From a virus: a DNA stretch of 21,905 nucleotides. The translations under genes were made by a program, and so were the position numbers. Below the pieces are notes generated by a model that did not search any database, had not been told where the DNA came from, and worked only from the letters and a program-made list of their open reading frames with translations. Below are positions 1,340 to 12,862 of this stretch, in pieces. Each line of letters begins with the position of its first letter. The stretch's first letter is position 1. The stretch spans positions 1-21,905 of IMG/VR virus record IMGVR_UViG_3300008459_000471. One strand, 5' to 3'.

Positions 1340-1369
1340 AACTTCTATTTGTTTTAAATTAATATTTAG

Positions 1370-1444
1370 TGGTCAGAATGGGACTCGAACCCATGTAACA
1401 GTCTTCCATGCAGTGTCTGTACCTTGCCACTCAGTCACCTGACC
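1370..1444 (-). tRNA. tRNA-like gene with abnormal anticodon arm
   Basis: A near-complete cloverleaf is visible: acceptor GGTCAGG pairs with TCTGACC (last pair G-T), the D-arm is ACT/GGT with a GG-containing loop, and the T-arm ATGGG-TTCGAGT-CCCAT is perfect. The anticodon arm is wrong. The best stem, CAGAC/GACTG, has an A-A mismatch and leaves an 11-base loop (ACTGCATGGAA) instead of 7. A Cys GCA triplet is present but no normal anticodon can be assigned. It may be a decayed tRNA, an unusual tRNA or a tRNA mimic. No CCA is encoded. Confidence 0.6.
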
Positions 1445-1445
1445 A

Positions 1446-1895
1446 TTTTCTTCATGTGAGGACACTTATTTATTAGCACCTTTCTCTTATTAAAATACCT
1501 TGTTTACTGCTCAGTGTGGTATCAACTGTAATAACTAATAAGAGTTAAGGTCACGTAGTTAATTCGCAGAAAGTTTCTAATGTTTCAGTTCTACCTTATA
1601 ACTACTTGCTGAGACTCATTTGTGTTGTGTGGAACCATTCATTATCCACCTTAACTCGCATATTCCTTTCTCAAGGGAACAACACATCTAGGATTTCTCC
1701 ATTACTACCAGAATTGACTTGTTACAGCCTATCTTCATAATACCCTGTAATTCAGGATTAGTATCTTTATGTAAATTTAAAAGTTTTGCTTTTATTAAAC
1801 TACCGACCCACTAAGTAGACCCACTAAGTAGACCAGGTGAGATTAGAACTCACTTTTTTTAAATTTACAAACCATCAATGTTTAGGGTATATTTT
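1446..1895 (-). ncRNA. Candidate large ornate structured RNA
   Basis: This roughly 450-base stretch has no gene. It shows several long complementary segments on the minus strand: 7 bp (1740-1746 with 1884-1890) enclosing a perfect 13-bp helix (1770-1782 with 1857-1869), a 10-bp helix (1542-1551 with 1648-1657), and a 9-bp helix (1484-1492 with 1536-1544). Local hairpins include GTGAG/CTCAC (1837-1853) with a T-loop-like loop. TGTGTTG/CAACACA interleaves with the 10-bp helix, suggesting a pseudoknot. Size, complexity and position beside a tRNA-like gene recall the ROOL/GOLLD class of phage RNAs, but I cannot assign it. The strand is inferred from its neighbours. Confidence 0.5.
1805..1834. repeat. 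13-bp direct tandem repeat
   Basis: GACCCACTAAGTA occurs twice in tandem (1805-1817 and 1818-1830), followed by the first four bases of a third copy. It lies inside the innermost domain of the large structured RNA, so it may be a recent duplication in a loop. Confidence 0.75.
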
Positions 1896-1935
1896 AACTA
1901 TTTTACATTTTTTACAAACGGTAAAGTACTCCCAT

Positions 1936-2091
1936 TTACTTTTTATTTTTAAATATTAATTTTGCTGAGATATACATCCCAAATATAAAAATTCCTATTC
2001 CTAACCATGCGTCGATATGGTTAAAACTCCAGATTGACGTAAATATCAAAAATACTGTTGTTAATGTAATTTTTGTAAATTTATTTACCAT
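1936..2091 (-). CDS. 51-residue membrane protein, paralogue of the gene at 3145-3297
   Basis: The sequence MVNKFTKITLTTVFLIF...FNHIDAWLGIGIF...MYISAKL has two hydrophobic stretches (about 8-20 and 28-42) and a lysine-rich C-terminus. It clearly matches the 50-residue protein at 3145-3297, sharing W(S/I)FNH(I/V)DAW(L/V)GIG and the YISAKL end. Both genes follow a copy of the same 200-base structured RNA, so the RNA and gene were duplicated together. No SPFH gene follows this copy. A role at the membrane, such as holin-like or SPFH partner, is inference only. Confidence 0.65.
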   Translation of the reverse strand: MVNKFTKITLTTVFLIFTSIWSFNHIDAWLGIGIFIFGMYISAKLIFKNKK

Positions 2092-2109
2092 AATTTATTT
2101 ATTATTAAA

Positions 2110-2310
2110 AACCAACACATCCATCAAGATTGGGATAAGTTAGAAGTTTTACGTTCAATATTAGTAGGAATTATTGAGCACTGCTCCACCATACTTTTCA
2201 CTTATCTTACTCAATAAACATAACACTTCTTGTAGCGTTAGTGATAGTGAGCTACAGCATTTTATCTCACAGAGCTGTTATCACTTTGTCTACCTTTCTA
2301 TGTGTTGGTT
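2110..2310 (-). ncRNA. Structured RNA element A (copy 1 of a duplicated family)
   Basis: A perfect 11-bp terminal helix (2110-2120 with 2300-2310) closes 201 bases. On the minus strand the inside shows AGTGATA/TATCACT, within which ACAGC/GCTGT and GTGAG/CTCAC interleave as a pseudoknot. Next come a hairpin AACGC/GTGTT with loop TACAAGAA and a second interleaved pair (ATTGAG/CTCAAT with GATAAGT/ACTTATC). The hairpin-loop CAAGA can pair with TCTTG near the 3' end. Three of these features recur in element B. It begins just after the SPFH stop and ends 19 bases before the 51-residue gene, so it could be a cis-regulatory leader or a processed ncRNA. Confidence 0.6.
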
Positions 2311-2316
2311 TATTTT

Positions 2317-3126
2317 TTATCTTACTGTCTTAACAAATGGTAAACCACTACCACCAGCATAGGTTGATGGTAAAACACCATTCCAACGGTTAATTGTTTT
2401 TTCTTGTAACACTTCTGGTGTTAAACCTCTAGAACGAATAATAGATTGTTCTGTTTTTAAAATTTCCAATTCATTCTTTTTCTTTTGTTCTGAAATTAAT
2501 TGGTCCAATACTGAAATATTTGTATTTACTTCATTACGATTATCAATTTTTTCTTTAACTTTCTTAGAGAAATCTAAATTTAAACTGAAACTGATTAATT
2601 CTAAACCAGATTTTTCAAATTCTTTTTTAACAATATCTTGTACATATTGTTCAAATTTTAACGAACCTCCATTCGCCATTAATTGTTCTGTTGTGTAACT
2701 TCTAGAAGCCTCTTTAATTACATCATAAATTCTTGGTTCTAGTACGTTATCTTGCAAAGCGGACATAAAATTATCTCCAGAACCTAATCTAGAATTTTGA
2801 AATACAACGTCTACTACCCTAGTTTCAATAACTTTAAACGAATATAAAGGTTTTGATGTAAATGCTGTATTATCAGCAGCCTTGATATTTAAAATTCGTT
2901 CAGTTCCTTCATCAGTTGTATACTGTCCTCTCTGTTCCCACGCTGGTACTTGGAATAATTCAGTTCCAGGAGCAATCGTAACAACCTTACCTTGTTGTTT
3001 AGAATAATCTGATTTACCATTCTTACCATAATTTTCCATCAACACCCCATAATAATTAGGGGCAACCCTTGTTGTACATGAAGTTAACAACACAAAAACC
3101 AACATAACACTTAATAATTTTTTCAT
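2317..3126 (-). CDS. SPFH/Band 7 domain lipoprotein
   Basis: This 269-residue protein has a lipoprotein signal peptide (MKKLLSVMLVFVLLTSC; lipobox LTSC, Cys17). An SPFH/prohibitin-like domain follows (about 20-190: PNYYGVLMENYG, then the beta-rich LNIKAADNTAF region and DVVFQNSR), then a helical, charged region (about 195-240). SPFH proteins form membrane-bound rings or scaffolds. Phage-encoded members are known in Bacteroidota phages, with unclear roles. Here the lipobox implies membrane anchoring by lipid. The gene follows a tiny membrane-protein gene (3145-3297) by 18 bases and is probably cotranscribed with it. The start at 3126 is the first Met of the signal peptide. Confidence 0.8.
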   Translation of the reverse strand: MKKLLSVMLVFVLLTSCTTRVAPNYYGVLMENYGKNGKSDYSKQQGKVVTIAPGTELFQVPAWEQRGQYTTDEGTERILNIKAADNTAFTSKPLYSFKVIETRVVDVVFQNSRLGSGDNFMSALQDNVLEPRIYDVIKEASRSYTTEQLMANGGSLKFEQYVQDIVKKEFEKSGLELISFSLNLDFSKKVKEKIDNRNEVNTNISVLDQLISEQKKKNELEILKTEQSIIRSRGLTPEVLQEKTINRWNGVLPSTYAGGSGLPFVKTVR

Positions 3127-3144
3127 TTTTTTTTCATTTTTTTT

Positions 3145-3297
3145 TTATTTTAATTTTTTTATTAATAATTTTGCTGAGATATATAAACCTAACACAAAAA
3201 CACCTATCCCAACCCAAGCGTCAACGTGATTAAAAATCCAAACAGTTCCGTAAAGGTATAAAAACGATACAATTACAACTTTAAATACTTTTTCCAT
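3145..3297 (-). CDS. 50-residue membrane protein
   Basis: The chosen start gives MEKVFKVVIVSFLYLYGTVWIFNHVDAW..., matching the start of its paralogue at 1936-2091. A longer frame to 3345 would run into structured RNA element B and add 16 poor residues. It has two hydrophobic segments (about 5-21 and 27-42) and ends KLLIKKLK. It lies between RNA element B and the SPFH gene. Close spacing suggests a membrane partner of the SPFH lipoprotein, or a holin-like protein; both are inference. I know of no named family. Confidence 0.65.
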   Translation of the reverse strand: MEKVFKVVIVSFLYLYGTVWIFNHVDAWVGIGVFVLGLYISAKLLIKKLK

Positions 3298-3332
3298 TTT
3301 TTTATTATAATTAATAATTAATAAAATAAATA

Positions 3333-3532
3333 ACACATCCATCAAGATTGGGATACAGCATTTAAGTTAGAGTTTTAAGAAGGATATTACTCCTTACACC
3401 ATTGCTTTTATCATACTCAACAAAACATAACACTTCTTGATAGTGTTTATAATACGCTAAAATGGATCTTGATACTTGATTCGCCCTTTAGCTTCGAGTA
3501 TCCTATATTATATTGTCTGTTTTTCTATGTGT
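3333..3532 (-). ncRNA. Structured RNA element B (copy 2)
   Basis: This is a 200-base homologue of element A. Shared blocks are the outer ACACAT...ATGTGT helix (3333-3338 with 3527-3532), the tail ATCCCAATCTTGATGG, and the hairpin AACAC/GTGTT (3429-3447) with loop TATCAAGAA. ATCAAGA of that loop can pair with TCTTGAT of the tail (3341-3347 with 3435-3441). In the variable part, pairing is kept while sequence changes: GATACT/AGTATC encloses GCTAAA, which pairs with TTTAGC further on, again a pseudoknot. The shared architecture despite sequence drift supports a selected RNA structure. It precedes the 50-residue membrane gene. Confidence 0.62.
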
Positions 3533-3551
3533 TGGTTTATTTTAATTTATT

Positions 3552-4127
3552 CTACCATGCTGAAGCTTCAGATGATGTACTAGAGGTTGATTGTGTAGGT
3601 GCATCAGCAACTAATCTTTCCATCATATCTCCATTTTTACGATTTAATTTTGATGGTGAAGTCTCTGCAGATTCTACAAAATCAAAATATCTTAATCCGA
3701 TATATTGAGATGGTTTTTGAATAGTACCATAGGTAACAAATACATTTAAAGATTTACCTTCTGAATTATCTTTAATAAGCTTAAATAAGCTATCTAAAGC
3801 TTCTTTAGAAGTAGACACTTCAGGAAATACAAAATCTTTAGCAACTACAGCTTTAGCTGCAGATAATACTCTACCTACTGTCCAACGTTCAAGGTCTGCA
3901 TTTCTTTTAGCGTCATACATTTCATTATTTTTATGATAGTAAAAACCTTGATTTACAAGACCACCATTTACATCTTTAAAAATAAGTTTGTAATCAGGTA
4001 CATTATCTGCGTCACCTGGTTGTTTTTTCTCAACCGACATTGTTACATTCTCTACTTTACCTGCTACACCATTGTTGAAAATTACAACACTACTTTCGAA
4101 ACTTGAATCATTTAAATTGAAACTCAT
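3552..4127 (-). CDS. Probable single-stranded DNA-binding protein
   Basis: This 191-residue soluble protein has an N-terminal beta-rich region (MSFNLNDSSFESSVVIFNNG...KLIFKDVNGGLVNQGFYYH, about 1-70), a central helical part, and a flexible Ser/Thr-rich C-terminus ending in Trp. It is encoded directly downstream of the Sak4-like RecA ATPase; phage Sak4 proteins commonly work with an SSB encoded next door. Neighbourhood and fold impression support SSB. I see no classical SSB signature and the tail is not strongly acidic. It could be another ssDNA-annealing accessory protein. RNA element B begins about 20 bases after the stop. Confidence 0.5.
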   Translation of the reverse strand: MSFNLNDSSFESSVVIFNNGVAGKVENVTMSVEKKQPGDADNVPDYKLIFKDVNGGLVNQGFYYHKNNEMYDAKRNADLERWTVGRVLSAAKAVVAKDFVFPEVSTSKEALDSLFKLIKDNSEGKSLNVFVTYGTIQKPSQYIGLRYFDFVESAETSPSKLNRKNGDMMERLVADAPTQSTSSTSSEASAW

Positions 4128-4295
4128 ATTAATTATTATTTATTGATTATTAAAATTATTTTTTGTTAAAAACTGTTTCTATTTTTAGAAAATACCCTTC
4201 TTGGAAACAGTCAAAGCAAGACGCCAACCTACGATTTGGAGATTTAGTGGCACTAAGTTGTGACTTATCTGTCTTCGATCCTTTGTACTTCAGGC
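4128..4295 (-). other. Intergenic region with terminator-like hairpin and folded segment
   Basis: No gene is seen. On the minus strand ACTGTTTC pairs perfectly with GAAACAGT (4172-4179 with 4204-4211) and is followed by TTTT, a plausible intrinsic terminator after the Sak4 gene, although the loop is 24 bases. Upstream of it (4215-4285) are AAGAC/GTCTT enclosing AGAT/ATCT, TAAGT/ACTTA and the palindrome TTAGTGCCACTAA, suggesting a small folded RNA in the leader of the 191-residue gene. Confidence 0.4.
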
Positions 4296-5066
4296 TTATT
4301 CTTTTACAAAAATCTTATCCCAATGAGATGTGAATTTACCAGTTTCATCAGATTCTAGTACCACGATTTCTCTATTTTTAAGATGCTCAGGTCGAGCACC
4401 TACAGTTAAAGATTCTGCAGGTTTAAAGTTGGCAATTGTTTTATTATCTTTTCTATAAAGATATGCAATGGCATCAGATTGTGAACATACAATAGATGAC
4501 AGTTTACCCGCTAAATCTAAACCTCTTGCTGTCATTTCTTTACCTTCATGCTCAATGATTTTATCTTTAGTATGTCCTGCAATAATCAATGTATCACATA
4601 ATTGTTCTAATTCATTAAGAATGATTAAAACTGCCTCCCTGAGGGGTCCGTAGCCAGCGCCATTTGCAAGCGTTCTAACATCTGTACCTTTGAAGTTTTT
4701 ACCCATTGGTGTATCTAAATACAGTTTTAATGCTAAATCTGTAGCATAGTTTTCTTCTAATGCTGAAATAGTATCAATAGTGATGTATTTATATGTGTGA
4801 CTTTTATTTGATGTGTTAGATTCTTTTAATTTGTCAATAACCATCTTTAAAGCTGCAATAGGTTTTACATTTTCTTTACGAGCAATGTCTAACACATTGA
4901 TTTTTAAACCTGATACAAACCCTGAACCATCTTCTAAATCTAAAATTAGATTATTTTCAAGACGGCTCAAACTTTCTGTTTTACCACATTTAGGTTGTGA
5001 AAATAATATTAACCTTTTAGGGTTAACTCTTGTAGGTTTTGTAACCTTACTTGGTAATTCTACCAT
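4296..5066 (-). CDS. Sak4-like RecA-family ATPase (phage recombination)
   Basis: This is a 256-residue RecA/Rad51-fold ATPase. Walker A is in LILFSQPKCGKTES (about 19-32), Walker B is YITIDT (94-99), and AGHTKD follows near 180. This architecture (often annotated AAA_24) is typical of the Sak4 family of phage single-strand annealing ATPases, which promote recombination together with an SSB. A probable SSB gene lies downstream and the replicative helicase is immediately upstream, with one base between them, so the genes are likely cotranscribed and coupled. It acts on phage DNA in the cytoplasm. The start at 5066 has no credible alternative. Confidence 0.75.
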   Translation of the reverse strand: MVELPSKVTKPTRVNPKRLILFSQPKCGKTESLSRLENNLILDLEDGSGFVSGLKINVLDIARKENVKPIAALKMVIDKLKESNTSNKSHTYKYITIDTISALEENYATDLALKLYLDTPMGKNFKGTDVRTLANGAGYGPLREAVLIILNELEQLCDTLIIAGHTKDKIIEHEGKEMTARGLDLAGKLSSIVCSQSDAIAYLYRKDNKTIANFKPAESLTVGARPEHLKNREIVVLESDETGKFTSHWDKIFVKE

Positions 5067-5067
5067 A

Positions 5068-6003
5068 TTATACGTTTCTTATATTGTTAATAAATTGTTT
5101 AACTTTACTTATTCCCTGACTATCATCAGGAAGTGGTAATTCTTTAAAATAATTGACAGCTCCGTCAAAATACAAAGGACATATTGCACCAGCACCGCCT
5201 TCACGACCACCTAATATTTCTAAAAATCTGATATTATCTTTAAAGAAAGTTATATCATATCCATAATAGTCAGGTATTTCGTGTCTAAACGGACTAAATA
5301 ATCCTAAAATTACGTTTGCATCTCTAGCTGTTAATTTATTATCGGCAAGACCGTCTAATGTAGGTTTAAGTTTGTTAAACTTTTTGTTTTCAATTGATTC
5401 TTGAGCCGCGCTCTGCTGTTGAATTACTACAGGTATATAATTAAATCTATTTCTTAATTTAATTAAATAATCTGACGATAATACAGACATACTTTCATGT
5501 AATGATAATTGTACACCGTTACGTTTTTCACTTGATATCAATGAAATGTGATCAACTATAATCATAACATATTCATCAGGATCGTTTGGTTCATAATAAT
5601 CATTTACTTCTGTAAGCTTACCTTCTATTTCAATCGTACGTTTGTGTAATTTACCATTCGCTAATGCATAATCTCTTACAAGATTAAACATTCCAAAACC
5701 ATGACGTATGTCATCAATAAATTCAACAATTTCTTCTATTTTATCAAAATAAACTTCATATTTTGCAATAATGTCTAATATTCCTTGAGATAAAACGTTA
5801 TCTGCTTTTGTACTTTTAAGGTCTTTTGGGCTGATTCGTAACCCTTCTTTAACATATAAAATGTTTGCAAATGCGGATAACATCTTTTCTTCTTTAGACA
5901 TTTCTAATGTAAAATAGAAGATTTTTAATCTAATATCTAGTTTATTATCTATTATTTGTTGTATTGTATTATACAAAAATAACCAATCCGCAATTTGTGT
6001 TTT
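5068..6003 (-). CDS. dnaB: Replicative DnaB-like helicase, exon 2
   Basis: This is the 3' exon of an intron-split SF4 helicase; joined to 6765-6950 it gives 373 residues with the frame kept. It begins KTQIADWLFLYN, completing Walker A (SKVG|KT). The Walker B region is VMIIVDHISL (about 207-216), and motif H3 is VVIQQQ (about 254-259). The protein lacks the long N-terminal domain of bacterial DnaB, as in many phage helicases. A TTG at 5976 opens an unbroken shorter frame, but no separate start is needed because coding continues upstream to the splice site. It unwinds DNA at the phage replication fork. Confidence 0.8.
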   Translation of the reverse strand, partial: KTQIADWLFLYNTIQQIIDNKLDIRLKIFYFTLEMSKEEKMLSAFANILYVKEGLRISPKDLKSTKADNVLSQGILDIIAKYEVYFDKIEEIVEFIDDIRHGFGMFNLVRDYALANGKLHKRTIEIEGKLTEVNDYYEPNDPDEYVMIIVDHISLISSEKRNGVQLSLHESMSVLSSDYLIKLRNRFNYIPVVIQQQSAAQESIENKKFNKLKPTLDGLADNKLTARDANVILGLFSPFRHEIPDYYGYDITFFKDNIRFLEILGGREGGAGAICPLYFDGAVNYFKELPLPDDSQGISKVKQFINNIRNV

Positions 6004-6764
6004 CTTTTGAAATTATACAAACCATGTAGTTTCATCATGACCCATTAACGTTAAAATGTCTTTTAATGAACGTTCACCATTACCTTTTTCTTCAAATTTT
6101 GATTTACTATTATTAAAATCAACTAAGTATATATAATATTCTGAAGTGTTATTACCAGACTCATACATTACCCATTTTTGTACATCTGGACAAAATAAAA
6201 ATCTTAAATGCATTTTATTACATATGGATAAAGGTTTTGTTAACTTTTCAATTTGTGAAGCAATATGTTTTTTTGAAGCATGTGGGTAATAGGTTTTTAC
6301 AACTGTTAACAATTCATCAAAACTTCTTCTTTTTTTACCACATTGTGAATTTGTACAATGTACATCGTGATAGGTTTCACAAAAAGTATAATTGTAACTG
6401 TGTTGACCCTCATCATAACATCTTTTTAAAAAAGAAACAATTTTTTCTCTGGGGTGTTTTTCAACGTTTACATATAATTTCATACTATAATTTAATAATT
6501 AATTTAACTTGTTTTATTTATTTAATTTTGGTAGTCGTGGTTATAAAATTAATATTTTATATTTATAGCCTGGACTATCTCTTCATCCACGTAGGATGCT
6601 GGACGCTAATAATGTATTACATAACACGCTTGTTAAACCATTTAGTCTCTACACCTTCCTTATAAGATCGTATAAGGCTTGGCACGGTATTGTCATCTTT
6701 CAATGAGTTTCACCGTTTTCATCCAGTTTTCATCTAAATATTACTATTTAGCGGAGCAAAACAT
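6004..6764 (-). ncRNA. Group I intron in the helicase gene
   Basis: Minus-strand core signatures appear in order: GTGCCAAGCC (P4/P6 region), AGAGACTAAATGG (P7 5' strand) and AGAGATAGTCC (P7 3' strand, near 6575). The predicted 5' splice follows the T of the Gly codon in GTGGGT (6765), and the intron ends with G at 6004. Joining these ends restores VGKTQIADW, an intact Walker A. A P1 helix between AGTGGGT and the intron segment GCTCCGCT is possible with a terminal U-G and one bulged C. The intron is 761 bases and carries an ORF after P7, in the P9 region. Confidence 0.8.
6013..6483 (-). CDS. Intron-encoded protein of unknown family
   Basis: This 156-residue protein lies in the 3' part of the helicase intron, ending 9 bases before the 3' splice site. 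It has a Cys/His-rich region (FCETYHDVHCTNSQCGKKRR, about 34-53) that could bind zinc, and a hydrophobic aromatic C-terminal half. I see no GIY-YIG, LAGLIDADG or HNH motif. It may be an unusual homing endonuclease, a maturase-like factor, or a normal phage gene trapped inside the intron. The start ATG at 6483 begins just after an AT-rich stretch following the ribozyme core. Confidence 0.6.
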   Translation of the reverse strand: MKLYVNVEKHPREKIVSFLKRCYDEGQHSYNYTFCETYHDVHCTNSQCGKKRRSFDELLTVVKTYYPHASKKHIASQIEKLTKPLSICNKMHLRFLFCPDVQKWVMYESGNNTSEYYIYLVDFNNSKSKFEEKGNGERSLKDILTLMGHDETTWFV

Positions 6765-6950
6765 ACCCACTTTACTATTTGCCGAGATAAGGTAATACTT
6801 ACCTTGTTCTATACCTGGTGATTCTTTCTCAAATCTTGGAAAACCCCATGGTATGCAGTTAATTTTACCTGATAATAATCTATCTCTACGTTCAGTAATA
6901 GATTTAAATACTCTATTATAAAGGCTTTTTGGTTTATTTAATAAATCCAT
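6765..6950 (-). CDS. dnaB: Replicative DnaB-like helicase, exon 1
   Basis: The 5' exon encodes 62 residues, MDLLNKPKSLYNRV...GKYYLISANSKVG, and ends exactly between G and K of the Walker A motif. The unspliced message would read through into MFCSAK and stop within the intron, giving a useless 68-residue product. Active helicase therefore requires splicing. The start ATG at 6950 lies 3 bases after the stop of the upstream 198-residue gene, so the two are probably cotranscribed. Confidence 0.8.
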
Positions 6951-8024: not shown

Positions 8025-8947
8025 TTAAAAAAGTGACAGTTGATTAAAATTATTTACTTCGTCTATTATTTCTTGTGTTTTACGAATATAATATGAATAA
8101 TTTATTTGATATTCGTCAAATGGTTTTTCTTTATACTCGTTAAAGATTTCAACACCTTCTCCCACATTAACATGTTGCATTGTACCCATACCATGCTTTT
8201 GTTTGAATAAATATGGTTTATTCTTGCTGAAATAATACCTATTAAGTTGTTGCTGAATTTCGTTATTCCAATATACCACATAGTCTTTACTTATTTTATT
8301 AGATTTACAATAGTCATAGATGTGTAGGTTGTGTTTATCAGGATTTGATATATATTCATTAGGGGGTATCCCTCTAATATAATATTCATTCAATGCCTTA
8401 GATATAATTAATTCATTACATGAATCACCTAATGGTATTTCTCTTTTATTGTCCTCATTAAAAGGTAATTTGAAAAAACCTTTACGTTTTATTTTACCAC
8501 CACCTGTTTCACAAATATAATTATTGACATTTTTATAAATGATTTTATTATAATTCTCATGTTCAAATTCAAGATTAAATTTTCGAGCTGTAATATCTAA
8601 AATATCTTGATATTGTTTTAACATATGCATAGGTACTAACACTTCAATTCCGTCAGTATTTGCAGAGACAACTTGCCATTTGTTAATAATACAAATTTCA
8701 ATACATTTAGTTAAAAATATTTGACCTATTAATCGTAATCTCATTGCACCTTCAGGATAATATAACCAGCTATGGGAATTATCCAATAAACCTGATGTTG
8801 AATTAAGAATAAGTTTAAGAAATGAATCTTTAGCTTTATTTTTATTACGTTTAGCCTCAATACGTTCTGTTTTTACTTGTCTGTATCGATCTAACACTTC
8901 AGGTTGTCTAATACATCCATAATTTAACATTATATTTGGATATAGTG
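8025..8947 (-). CDS. Family B DNA polymerase, exon 2
   Basis: This is the 3' exon of an intron-split polymerase; joined to 9971-10925 it gives 625 residues in frame. It completes motif A (SDIA|SLYPNI), then carries motif B as KLILNSTSG (about 363-371) and motif C as SANTDGIEV, with TDG (416-418) in place of the usual DTDS, a variant I recall from other phage PolB proteins. The thumb follows to the C-terminus, FNQLSLF. The end QLSLF resembles a sliding-clamp-binding peptide, although no clamp gene is in the window. The ATG at 8930 is internal, not a start. Confidence 0.85.
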
Positions 8948-8956
8948 CTTATATCC

Positions 8957-9676
8957 TTAATCCAGTATGTTTCCATCTGGCTGGACTATATCATTATTTA
9001 AAACTTTAACCCATTTAAAACCATACATTGATGGTTTTTCACCACTACAACACGCGTAAATATTATGTACTTTATAGGTGGGATTATCAATTATAATATC
9101 CTTTACCTTTTTCCATTCTTTTATTAGTGTTGTACCGTTTTTAGAATATTGTAAAATTGTGTATTTTGTGTGAATATCCGATACCTTTTTCTTCATTTGT
9201 TCTTTTATTTCTGGATTTTCTTTCCAAAATTTAGATGAAGATTTACTTATTTTAATTCTTTCTTCAGGATTTTCATATCTTTTTTTATGTGAAATACTCA
9301 TTTTAATACGTGTATTTTCATGACAAATCATATTTGTAGAAGAATCTCTTCTCAAATTGTATCCTAATTTAGAATCTGTTGTTTTGTAAAAATCTATCCA
9401 AAACAATTCTTTTTCTTTAATTATTGATTCAAAATCTTTAATATTTTTATCAATAATTTCAAGTACAAAATATTCAAATTTTTCTTTTCCGTATTTCCAC
9501 CACGCATTTATAAAATATTGATTTTCTCTTTTGGGGTCTTTAGCGTTAAGTCCTCCAATATGATTATATATTCGTTGTCTAATATTTATAGATTTTCCAA
9601 TATATTTTTTATCCGTTTCAATATTTCTAATGCAGTAAATACCACAAAGACCCTCATGTAATTTATTTGTTTTCAT
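8957..9676 (-). CDS. GIY-YIG homing endonuclease (intron-encoded)
   Basis: From ATG 9676 the protein is 239 residues. GIY (12-14) and YIG (25-27) are separated by the usual spacing, followed by the Arg-containing helix NIRQRIYNHI and a catalytic-type Glu region (YFVLEII). The middle is basic and rich in KxS repeats, suiting DNA binding, and a NUMOD-like SMYGFKW lies near the C-terminus. It would cut an intronless polymerase gene and drive intron homing. A TTG at 9697 would add 7 residues, but it overlaps a TATCTTTG promoter box. The last codons overlap the P7 3' strand, and the stop is 8 bases from the intron end. Confidence 0.85.
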   Translation of the reverse strand: MKTNKLHEGLCGIYCIRNIETDKKYIGKSINIRQRIYNHIGGLNAKDPKRENQYFINAWWKYGKEKFEYFVLEIIDKNIKDFESIIKEKELFWIDFYKTTDSKLGYNLRRDSSTNMICHENTRIKMSISHKKRYENPEERIKISKSSSKFWKENPEIKEQMKKKVSDIHTKYTILQYSKNGTTLIKEWKKVKDIIIDNPTYKVHNIYACCSGEKPSMYGFKWVKVLNNDIVQPDGNILD

Positions 9677-9694
9677 ATAAAATTTTATTTTATA

Positions 9695-9702
9695 CAAAGA
9701 TA
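9695..9702 (-). promoter_or_regulatory. Putative -7 box of a promoter for the intron endonuclease
   Basis: TATCTTTG on the minus strand is an exact match to the Bacteroidota -7 consensus TAnnTTTG, and is the same octamer as the promoters at 17494 and 18147. It ends 18 bases before the ATG of the GIY-YIG gene. No good -33 TTTG is visible at 19 bases. It suggests that the endonuclease is transcribed separately from the polymerase message. Confidence 0.45.
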
Positions 9703-9970
9703 CATTATTTTGAGGTAATATCCTAATTAATTAGGGTAAATTTTACATAAATTTTATATTACTATAGCGTTTATGTGTTTTAAATACTTCCTGTTTAGTC
9801 TCTGAACCTTTATCCCATTAGGACACTTGGCTGCGGATTGACCAATCTTTATCTTTTTTACTATACTGAGGTAATTATTCTCACCACATAGTATGTTACC
9901 ACCTATGTTTAGTAGATAAAGCTCTAAGGTTATTCCCGTCAATTTAAGAAGTTTTAATTGCGCCACTTTA

Positions 9971-10925
9971 ACGCAATATCTGAGGTCATAATTTGTAAAT
10001 CATTATCTGTATAATATTGTTCATTTTCATTAACAGAATGAAGACCTCCAATACCATATGTTAATCTAATATTTGTATTATTGTAATTAACTAAAAGTTC
10101 TTTACTGAATGTATCTTTACCATTTAATATTTCTAACCATAAATTTTGAAATATTGGTAATTTAAATTCAGGGTCAAAACCTTTTAAGATTTCATTTAAA
10201 TACAATGTAGGTTTTTCATATCTTGTATTTCTGACTTCATTTATCTTTCTAGATGTTATCTTACAATAATCTGATAATAAAGCTTCTGATGCAATTTTTG
10301 GTGCATCCCAAGACCAACAATTTAAATTATACTCTTTAATAATATTACCTCTTAAACGAATTTCTCCCTCCATTTCTAAAGTTAATAATTCTAATATACC
10401 TAAGTCGTGGGTATAATTATAATATCTTAACTTAGGGAGATCTTCTAAAGATAATATAGAGTTTGGTTTAAATGGTAATTCTTGTACAACAGGATAACCT
10501 AATTGAATACCTAAAGATTTTAAACTTATCTTTTTAGAAATTCTTAACATTTTTGACCAATATGCAAACAAATCTATATCAATCCATTTAGATTTCATAT
10601 ATTTAATTTGTTTAACATCTTCGTCAAAAATGTCATCTATTATTTTATCTGAGAAATATTTTAATTCTAGACATATATTTGAATATCCTAAGTACTTCAA
10701 ATTTTCATAATTTTTAACTAAATACTTGACAACCATGTTATCGTAATGTAATCCGTTAAAACTTATTAAAAATCCAGTATAACTTTTAAAAAATCCATAT
10801 ATTTTATCTATATCGTTTCTTTCTTCAGATATTTCATAAAATGTAATTTCTTTAGTGACGAAATCTTTTATACCAACACAGAAATAATTTTTGTAACATT
10901 CTATATCGTATAGTTTTTTATTCAT
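9971..10925 (-). CDS. Family B DNA polymerase, exon 1
   Basis: The 5' exon carries the 3'-5' exonuclease domain: Exo I YDIEC (DIE 7-9), Exo II FNGLHYDN (about 56-63), and Exo III YNYTHD (169-174). It then runs to TSDIA, the start of polymerase motif A (Asp316), where the intron interrupts the Ser codon after its first base. All three exonuclease acidic positions are present, so proofreading is expected. The start ATG overlaps the stop of the 41-residue gene upstream (ATGA), implying translational coupling. It is the main phage replicase. Confidence 0.87.
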
Positions 10926-12461: not shown

Positions 12462-12502
12462 CGTCTCCAAACATCATAGGATATACCCTGAGTTTGGAGA
12501 CG
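12462..12502 (-). terminator. 11-bp palindrome overlapping the tmRNA 3' end
   Basis: CGTCTCCAAAC (minus 12502-12492) pairs perfectly with GTTTGGAGACG (minus 12472-12462) across a 19-base loop. The first arm contains the tmRNA 3' acceptor strand, so in the precursor this strand can pair either with the tmRNA 5' end or with the downstream copy. No T-run follows. It may be a terminator, a processing signal, or a trace of insertion of the HNH gene. Confidence 0.5.
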
Positions 12503-12862
12503 GTGGGATTCGAACCCACGTCGATCAATGCGTTTGTTATATAATTTTATACAGCTTTTTGTAGTATTTAATCTTTAATGTCCCTTAAACACTACTAAAT
12601 GTGGACAGCTATGGCAATGTTATACTCTAGCCAGTGTTGAGTTTGATTTGGGATTAGCGCACACGCGAATTCTAATTTACCAAATCATTTTAAACTATGC
12701 TGCCATTAATACTTCTTCTTTAGAAGAGTTAATCAATGAAAAAACTTTAGCCATATTGGCTTTTGCTTGATTTTTGCCGTTTAAAATATTCACCTTAGTT
12801 TACAGTTATCTCTCTGGCTGAATTATATAATTACTGACACAACCTCAAAGCCAGTCGTCCCC
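12495..12862 (-). ncRNA. ssrA: Phage transfer-messenger RNA (tmRNA)
   Basis: At 368 bases the size fits tmRNA. The 5' end GGGGACG pairs with 3' CGTCTCC (one G-U), and the T-arm GTGGG-TTCGAAT-CCCAC is perfect. Helix 2 forms between TAATTATATAATT near the 5' end and AATTATATAA near the 3' end. Downstream hairpins such as GATTTGG/CCAAATC and GTAGTGTTTA/TAAATACTAC suit the pseudoknot region. An open frame (12695-12778) from GGC encodes GKNQAKANMAKV..., ending KEEVLMAA then TAG. The end resembles the ALAA degron, and the context AAACGG at its start resembles Bacteroidota tmRNA. CCA is not encoded. It would rescue stalled ribosomes and tag nascent proteins. Confidence 0.9.

Follow-up and report, generated by a model that had tools for sequence, protein, structure and literature searches.

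A kissing-loop non-coding RNA family with exchangeable arms in crAss-like phages

Elements A and B, which lie on one viral contig of 21,905 nt (IMG/VR record IMGVR_UViG_3300008459_000471, the whole of which is called the window below), are two copies of a real folded non-coding RNA family of crAss-like phages, and this kissing-loop RNA family is previously undescribed. The explanation we favour is that A and B are stand-alone non-coding RNA genes of a crAss-like phage and not leaders. A duplicated pseudoknotted RNA had been proposed here by a first-pass annotation, and the first family model (R1) recovered both copies in place, at 2110-2310 and 3328-3537 on the minus strand; further homologues were found, their pairs covary strongly, and Rfam held no match that would assign them another role. 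The features are as follows.

2110-2310, minus strand: full-length element A, 201 nt, beginning (5′) at 2310 (R1, 103.5 bits)
2300-2310, minus strand: element A, P1 5′ strand AACCAACACAU, paired with 2110-2120 (double changes in the family)
2294-2299, minus strand: element A, AGAAAG joining P1 to P2 (alignment A5)
2287-2293, minus strand: element A, P2 5′ strand GUAGACA, paired with UGUUUAU at 2214-2220
2240-2286, minus strand: element A, arm 2, with P5 as its closing helix and no relation to its counterpart in B
2222-2239, minus strand: element A, P3 hairpin, kissing loop CAAGA at 2228-2232
2135-2206, minus strand: element A, arm 1, closed by P4
2121-2133, minus strand: element A, P6 hairpin CCA-AUCUUGA-UGG, whose loop UCUUG at 2125-2129 kisses the P3 loop
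2110-2120, minus strand: element A, P1 3′ strand AUGUGUUGGUU, then a short U-run (double changes in the family, sequence)
3328-3537, minus strand: full-length element B, 210 nt, beginning (5′) at 3537 (R1, 93 bits)
3448-3513, minus strand: element B, arm 2, matching that of locus L022 at 89% identity over 70 nt
3429-3447, minus strand: element B, P3 hairpin with CAAGA (3435-3439) as its kissing loop
3353-3412, minus strand: element B, arm 1
3339-3351, minus strand: element B, P6 hairpin, loop UCUUG at 3343-3347
3145-3297, minus strand: tiny membrane protein B, 50 aa, a constant neighbour of SPFH and not of the RNA
2317-3126, minus strand: SPFH/Band_7 lipoprotein, 269 aa (PF01145, 4e-10; phrog_200, 5.9e-29)
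1936-2091, minus strand: tiny membrane protein A, 51 aa, starting 18 nt past element A

Members of the family and their carriers

The blocks common to A and B read, on the plus strand, ACACATCCATCAAGATTGGGATA ... TTATC[AT]TACTCAACAAACATAACAC[CT]TCTTG ... TGTTTGTCTTTCTATGTGT. An exact 23-mer scan of IMG/VR viral contigs with the first shared block gave 15 loci, and exact scans with the other shared blocks gave 22, 24, 17 and 19 loci. With duplicates removed, the family comprises 39 distinct elements of ~155-285 nt in ~45 phage contigs. A second covariance model (R2) scored elements A and B at 109.3 and 92.5 bits in a twin contig and gave matches in 44 of the 75 viral records searched, almost every one of which has one or two copies; this is no prevalence figure because many of these records were picked for carrying the element. 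The RNA had no Rfam match at gathering and E-value thresholds: cmscan at the gathering score over the whole window and 17 related loci returned only tmRNA, permuted tmRNA and tRNA, and an E-value search of 1400-4400 gave two matches, both judged to be chance. We found no earlier description of the family in the open-licence literature.

The distribution is phage-only and sporadic. Model searches revealed no convincing copy in 395 Bacteroidota genomes, where a lone 34.5-bit match with many broken pairs was judged to be chance, and only weak matches, none convincing, in eight gut crAss-like genomes (top 23.1 bits). Likewise, a 16-mer scan for bacterial chromosomal copies gave chance matches in genome contigs, some within coding sequence, and the core had no convincing BLAST match among named phage records. 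The window polymerase (phrog_1252) matches gut Crassvirales polymerases at ~30-35% identity, and the same genome encodes Sak4, a DnaB-type helicase, PhoH and tmRNA, which places the carriers among crAss-like phages or their relatives.

Two of these window genes, both on the minus strand, are split. The Family-B-like DNA polymerase (8025-10925) is interrupted by ~1 kb containing a GIY-YIG-like open reading frame (8957-9697), a possible self-splicing or homing insert, and the DnaB-type helicase (5068-6950) breaks close to the Walker A region into 6744-6950 and 5068-5976, the two parts being separated by a possible endonuclease-like open reading frame (6013-6483).

Fold, strand and exchangeable arms

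Fold statistics were computed on a 36-member alignment (A5). The fold shown by this alignment is a compact core made up of a closing helix P1, a helix P2, a hairpin P3, two helices that carry the arms (P4 and P5), the 3-bp hairpin P6 and a kissing contact between the loops of P3 and P6; from the P1 junction extend P2, P4 with arm 1, and P6, and P2 in turn carries P5 with arm 2 and hairpin P3. The AGAAA of the segment joining P1 to P2 is the same in all 36 members. In this structure 94.0% of cells are paired and 30 of 42 pairs show double changes on both sides, with none of 500 shuffled controls as good on any measure and slid versions pairing at 36-47%. Covariation was observed at every pair of P1 (all 11 pairs), P4 and P5, in 4 of the 5 pairs of P3 and in two of the three pairs of P6 (CCA/UGG, CCU/AGG, CCC/GGG, UCA/UGA), and P2 is paired in 96% of cells, with changes mostly from A-U to G.U.

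The P3 loop UCAAGA is complementary to the P6 loop UCUUGA. The contact is near-invariant in close members and therefore amounts to mere complementarity there, but it pairs with changed sequence in more distant ones, as CAAGG/CCUUG in L028b, CCAAG/CUUGG in G016b (by eye) and, in the very divergent L191, UUCUAAG/CUUAGAA (by eye). The sequence bears out what the first-pass annotation had described as common to A and B: the helix that closes the element, the block in the tail, and complementarity of CAAGA with TCTTG. A hammerhead-like or tRNA-Lys-like identity for the P6 loop was dropped, as its residues change in divergent members.

The alignment contains 61 G.U pairs against 14 A.C, which assigns the RNA to the minus strand, on which the adjoining genes also run; this asymmetry ruled out a plus-strand reading.

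Continued pairing in the variable arms, as claimed by the first-pass annotation, was confirmed for their proximal helices P4 and P5 and for the loop-loop contact. It failed for the distal arms, which had no extra stability over dinucleotide shuffles (mean z ~−0.35, equal to random phage DNA), which raises the possibility that these arms are not folded specificity domains. Compensatory changes are nevertheless present in a few arm hairpins, for example GUAUAGG/CCUAUAC versus GUAUGAG/CUCAUAC.

Comparison across members showed a near-fixed core sequence and two arms that are exchanged as cassettes between phages. Clustering of the 39 elements gave 25 arm-2 families and 29 arm-1 families. Arm 2 was shared in 22 pairs, arm 1 in 11 and both in none, a count in which pairs sharing both arms are fewer because identical and near-identical elements had been removed before clustering. 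In ten elements both arms recur elsewhere with different partners. The cleanest case is an orthologous site at which both arms were replaced in place: L028 (5218-5468) and L276 (11970-12161) have flanks of 89.7% identity over 1919 nt before the element and 90.3% over 1151 nt downstream, and keep three core blocks at 87-97%, but their arms 1 and 2 are unrelated. A and B themselves do not resemble one duplicated block of RNA and gene, because their arms are unrelated and arm 2 of B is 89% identical to that of L022.

Other RNA-like regions occur in these phages. RNA-2 (~350-450 nt; about 1470-1890 in the window, minus strand) contains the fixed blocks CATAAAGATAC, GATGTGTTG, CCTTGAGAAAGG, ACACAAATGAGTTCTCAGCAAGTAGTTA, ACTACGTGACCCTACTCTTA and AAGAGGGTGCTAA with variable arms between them, has no Rfam match, often lies directly downstream of the kissing-loop RNA, and is also present in L188, L002, L006, L012, L018, L023, L026, L029, L182 and L190. 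RNA-3 is conserved between two phages (L222, about 550-1150; L233, about 1120-1500). Shells resembling tRNA-Leu keep the acceptor, D and T arms (AGTCAGGTGGCGGAATTGGTAGACGC...CAGGTTCGAATCCTGTCCTGACT), and unrelated inserts of ~20-100 nt take the place of the anticodon arm and the variable arm; they were seen at L012 839-1731 (four copies), in L004, L005, L017, L179 and L185, and in L189, L191, L202, L207, L231 and others. A tRNA-like sequence in the window (GGTCAGGTGACTGAGTGGC...GGGTTCGAGTCCCATTCTGACCA, about 1367-1444, minus strand) has an odd anticodon region and was not called by ARAGORN or Rfam, and in L012, L018 and L233 a small hairpin, GAC..CTTGGAAAGACAAG.., recurs between tRNA-like genes, perhaps as a processing signal.

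Arm sequences also reach beyond the family. Over 87 nt, arm 1 of L012 and part of RNA-3 in L222 and L233 are 80% identical, and arm 1 of L003 and L028b has a module, GAAATAATCC...GTAAATA[CG]TAAAC, in common with an RNA-2 arm in L023, a short and less secure match (E 0.003). One reading, which we regard as quite unlikely, is RNA-domain shuffling, in which a common pool of arm modules would be plugged into several fixed scaffolds (the kissing-loop core, RNA-2, RNA-3 and the tRNA-Leu-like shells without an anticodon arm), giving decoys or inhibitors against host RNA-targeting defences, possibly as kissing-loop oligomers. If true, it would provide a fast-changing decoy or inhibitor RNA repertoire.

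Edges and neighbours of the RNA

Three kinds of site mark the 5′ edge of the RNA. A Bacteroidota-type promoter (TTG..TANNTTTG) ends 5-12 nt before P1 in 9 members, which represent ~3 independent loci since seven have one upstream gene in common, compared with a chance density of ~0.002 per 10-nt window. In L009, L016, L027 and L225, and by eye in L229, the 5′ edge lies 1-3 nt past a tRNA 3′ end. Many members have no visible promoter and begin 3-14 nt past a stop codon, as in A, which begins 6 nt past that of SPFH, in B and in roughly a dozen more. On the 3′ side, a U-run directly follows P1 in L028b, L180, L182, L191 and L226, a 14-bp terminator lies directly behind the element in L277, and a tRNA starts 3-9 nt downstream in L008, L018 and G016b. 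Behind the RNA of L180 and L182 lies a new promoter that serves the membrane gene. Taken together, these 5′ edges (promoter, tRNA, stop codon), 3′ edges (U-run, terminator, tRNA) and fresh promoters favour an independent RNA.

The many members that lack a visible promoter count against this, but the main argument against it is the polarity of the neighbourhood: of 34 members, 27 have tRNA, tmRNA or RNA-2 on the downstream side within 2 kb, compared with 8 of 32 on the upstream side, counts that take in related loci. A trans-acting RNA does not need such polarity, which therefore counts against action in trans, and a cis antiterminator would show the same placement. The main rival is accordingly cis antitermination or Rho insulation, in which the nascent RNA, folding where translation ends, would modify RNA polymerase or block Rho so that the untranslated tRNA and ncRNA arrays further downstream are transcribed. 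The model for it is HK022 putRNA, a small phage RNA element that acts as a cis antiterminator, works alone on the elongation complex and can recur within operons (PMC9378689). The positions just past stop codons fit this reading, as does an invariant core with tolerant arms. However, the terminator of L277 and the U-run plus new promoter of L180 and L182 oppose it, several copies sit inside tRNA arrays with tRNAs already upstream, and antitermination needs no wholesale arm swapping; we consider it unlikely. To our knowledge, putRNA and the kissing-loop RNA have no common sequence.

The starts past stop codons in about a dozen members and past tRNA 3′ ends in four could also point to an element for mRNA 3′-end stabilization or processing, whose knotted fold would stop exonucleases or mark cleavage, protecting the upstream mRNA or freeing tRNAs. 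We find this improbable: promoter-bearing copies have no upstream mRNA needing protection, a simple hairpin would suffice, and the conserved loop contact and arm exchange would be left unexplained.

The first-pass annotation had also seen in each copy a selected unit of RNA and membrane protein. Its gene arrangement was borne out, since each copy precedes a gene for a 50-51 residue membrane protein (1936-2091 and 3145-3297), these proteins are 45% identical, and the SPFH lipoprotein gene (2317-3126) lies between the copies; the constancy of the unit was not. A search of viral contigs with the membrane protein returned the twin contig only, because the peptide is too short, and the SPFH protein was used instead, giving 37 related loci. 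In at least 26 of these 37, tblastn places the tiny membrane gene immediately upstream of SPFH, and the RNA stands beside the membrane-SPFH pair in only 6 of 37, upstream in L178, L180, L182, L183 and L190 and downstream in L188 and again in L178; in L191, the seventh locus, a divergent copy with a weak score lies ~2 kb off. Phages with ~80% identical SPFH lack the RNA at that site, and 33 SPFH-bearing records searched whole yielded a convincing copy in only two. In L187 and L189, a group I intron-like sequence lies in the gene upstream of the membrane-SPFH pair.

The RNA as leader regulator of the tiny membrane protein, or as its partner, would accord with the gene order in the window, L003/L190, L004/L183, L180 and L182. 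We nevertheless hold it to be very improbable: the membrane gene occurs beside SPFH whether the RNA is present or not, such a gene is missing from the vicinity of most RNA copies, which adjoin tRNAs, tmRNA or unrelated genes, and in L180 and L182 the membrane gene has its own promoter. Of the two roles first suggested, a non-coding RNA fits better than a leader, and the adjoining membrane-protein gene is mostly a bystander.

Known systems and possible function

The best reading is an accessory trans-acting phage non-coding RNA of the broad GOLLD/ROOL kind, unrelated in sequence. GOLLD and ROOL are structured phage ncRNAs of unknown function, often near tRNA islands and with pseudoknots or kissing loops, and GOLLD has one conserved and one less conserved region (PMC12286853). 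The kissing-loop RNA resembles them in being phage-encoded, structured, located near tRNA islands and provided with a loop-loop contact, but has no sequence or covariance-model match to them, a different fold and a length of ~155-285 nt compared with ~660 to >800; unlike them, it carries two exchangeable arms and is confined here to relatives of crAss-like phages. It differs from putRNA in having its own terminators in some loci and swappable arms. With the tmRNA and permuted tmRNA of the same phages it shares location and a free-standing character, whereas neither a tRNA-like end nor a tag reading frame was seen in it; in the window ARAGORN and Rfam called tmRNA at 12494-12862 and not at A or B. 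Permuted tmRNA genes (RF04321) occur in L180, L182, L183 and L190 about 4000-5330, and close relatives have ordinary tmRNA. OLE RNA is a structured RNA sometimes mentioned together with a membrane protein; the kissing-loop RNA has no match to its model and an inconstant membrane-protein link.

We judge the chances about even that the element is a stable processed RNA acting in trans, with a core that binds a conserved partner or itself and arms that adapt to a changing target. The RNA would be released as a stable molecule with its ends at P1, either transcribed from a promoter of its own and ended by a U-run or terminator, or processed from tRNA arrays or mRNA 3′ ends. It would then act in trans, its invariant core binding one conserved partner (host RNA polymerase, the ribosome, an RNase or a phage protein) or pairing with another copy of the RNA, and its arms might reach the changing target. 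Abundant expression as a discrete RNA and a homo-oligomeric RNA-only cage mark the GOLLD/ROOL type; the kissing loops of this RNA could work between molecules. Its sporadic distribution, mobility and rapid rearrangement point to an accessory role in host takeover or counter-defence, as a decoy or inhibitor, and not to a housekeeping one.

What large phage RNAs near tRNA islands do is a known puzzle, to which this family adds a small and sharply conserved case. Its natural arm-swap variants, one of them at an orthologous site, make the functions of core and arms separately testable. The exchange of RNA domains as cassettes, possibly across RNA families, would, if true, be an unusual mode of RNA evolution, and structured RNA genes of this kind form part of the dark matter of crAss-like phages that gene-centred annotation has overlooked.
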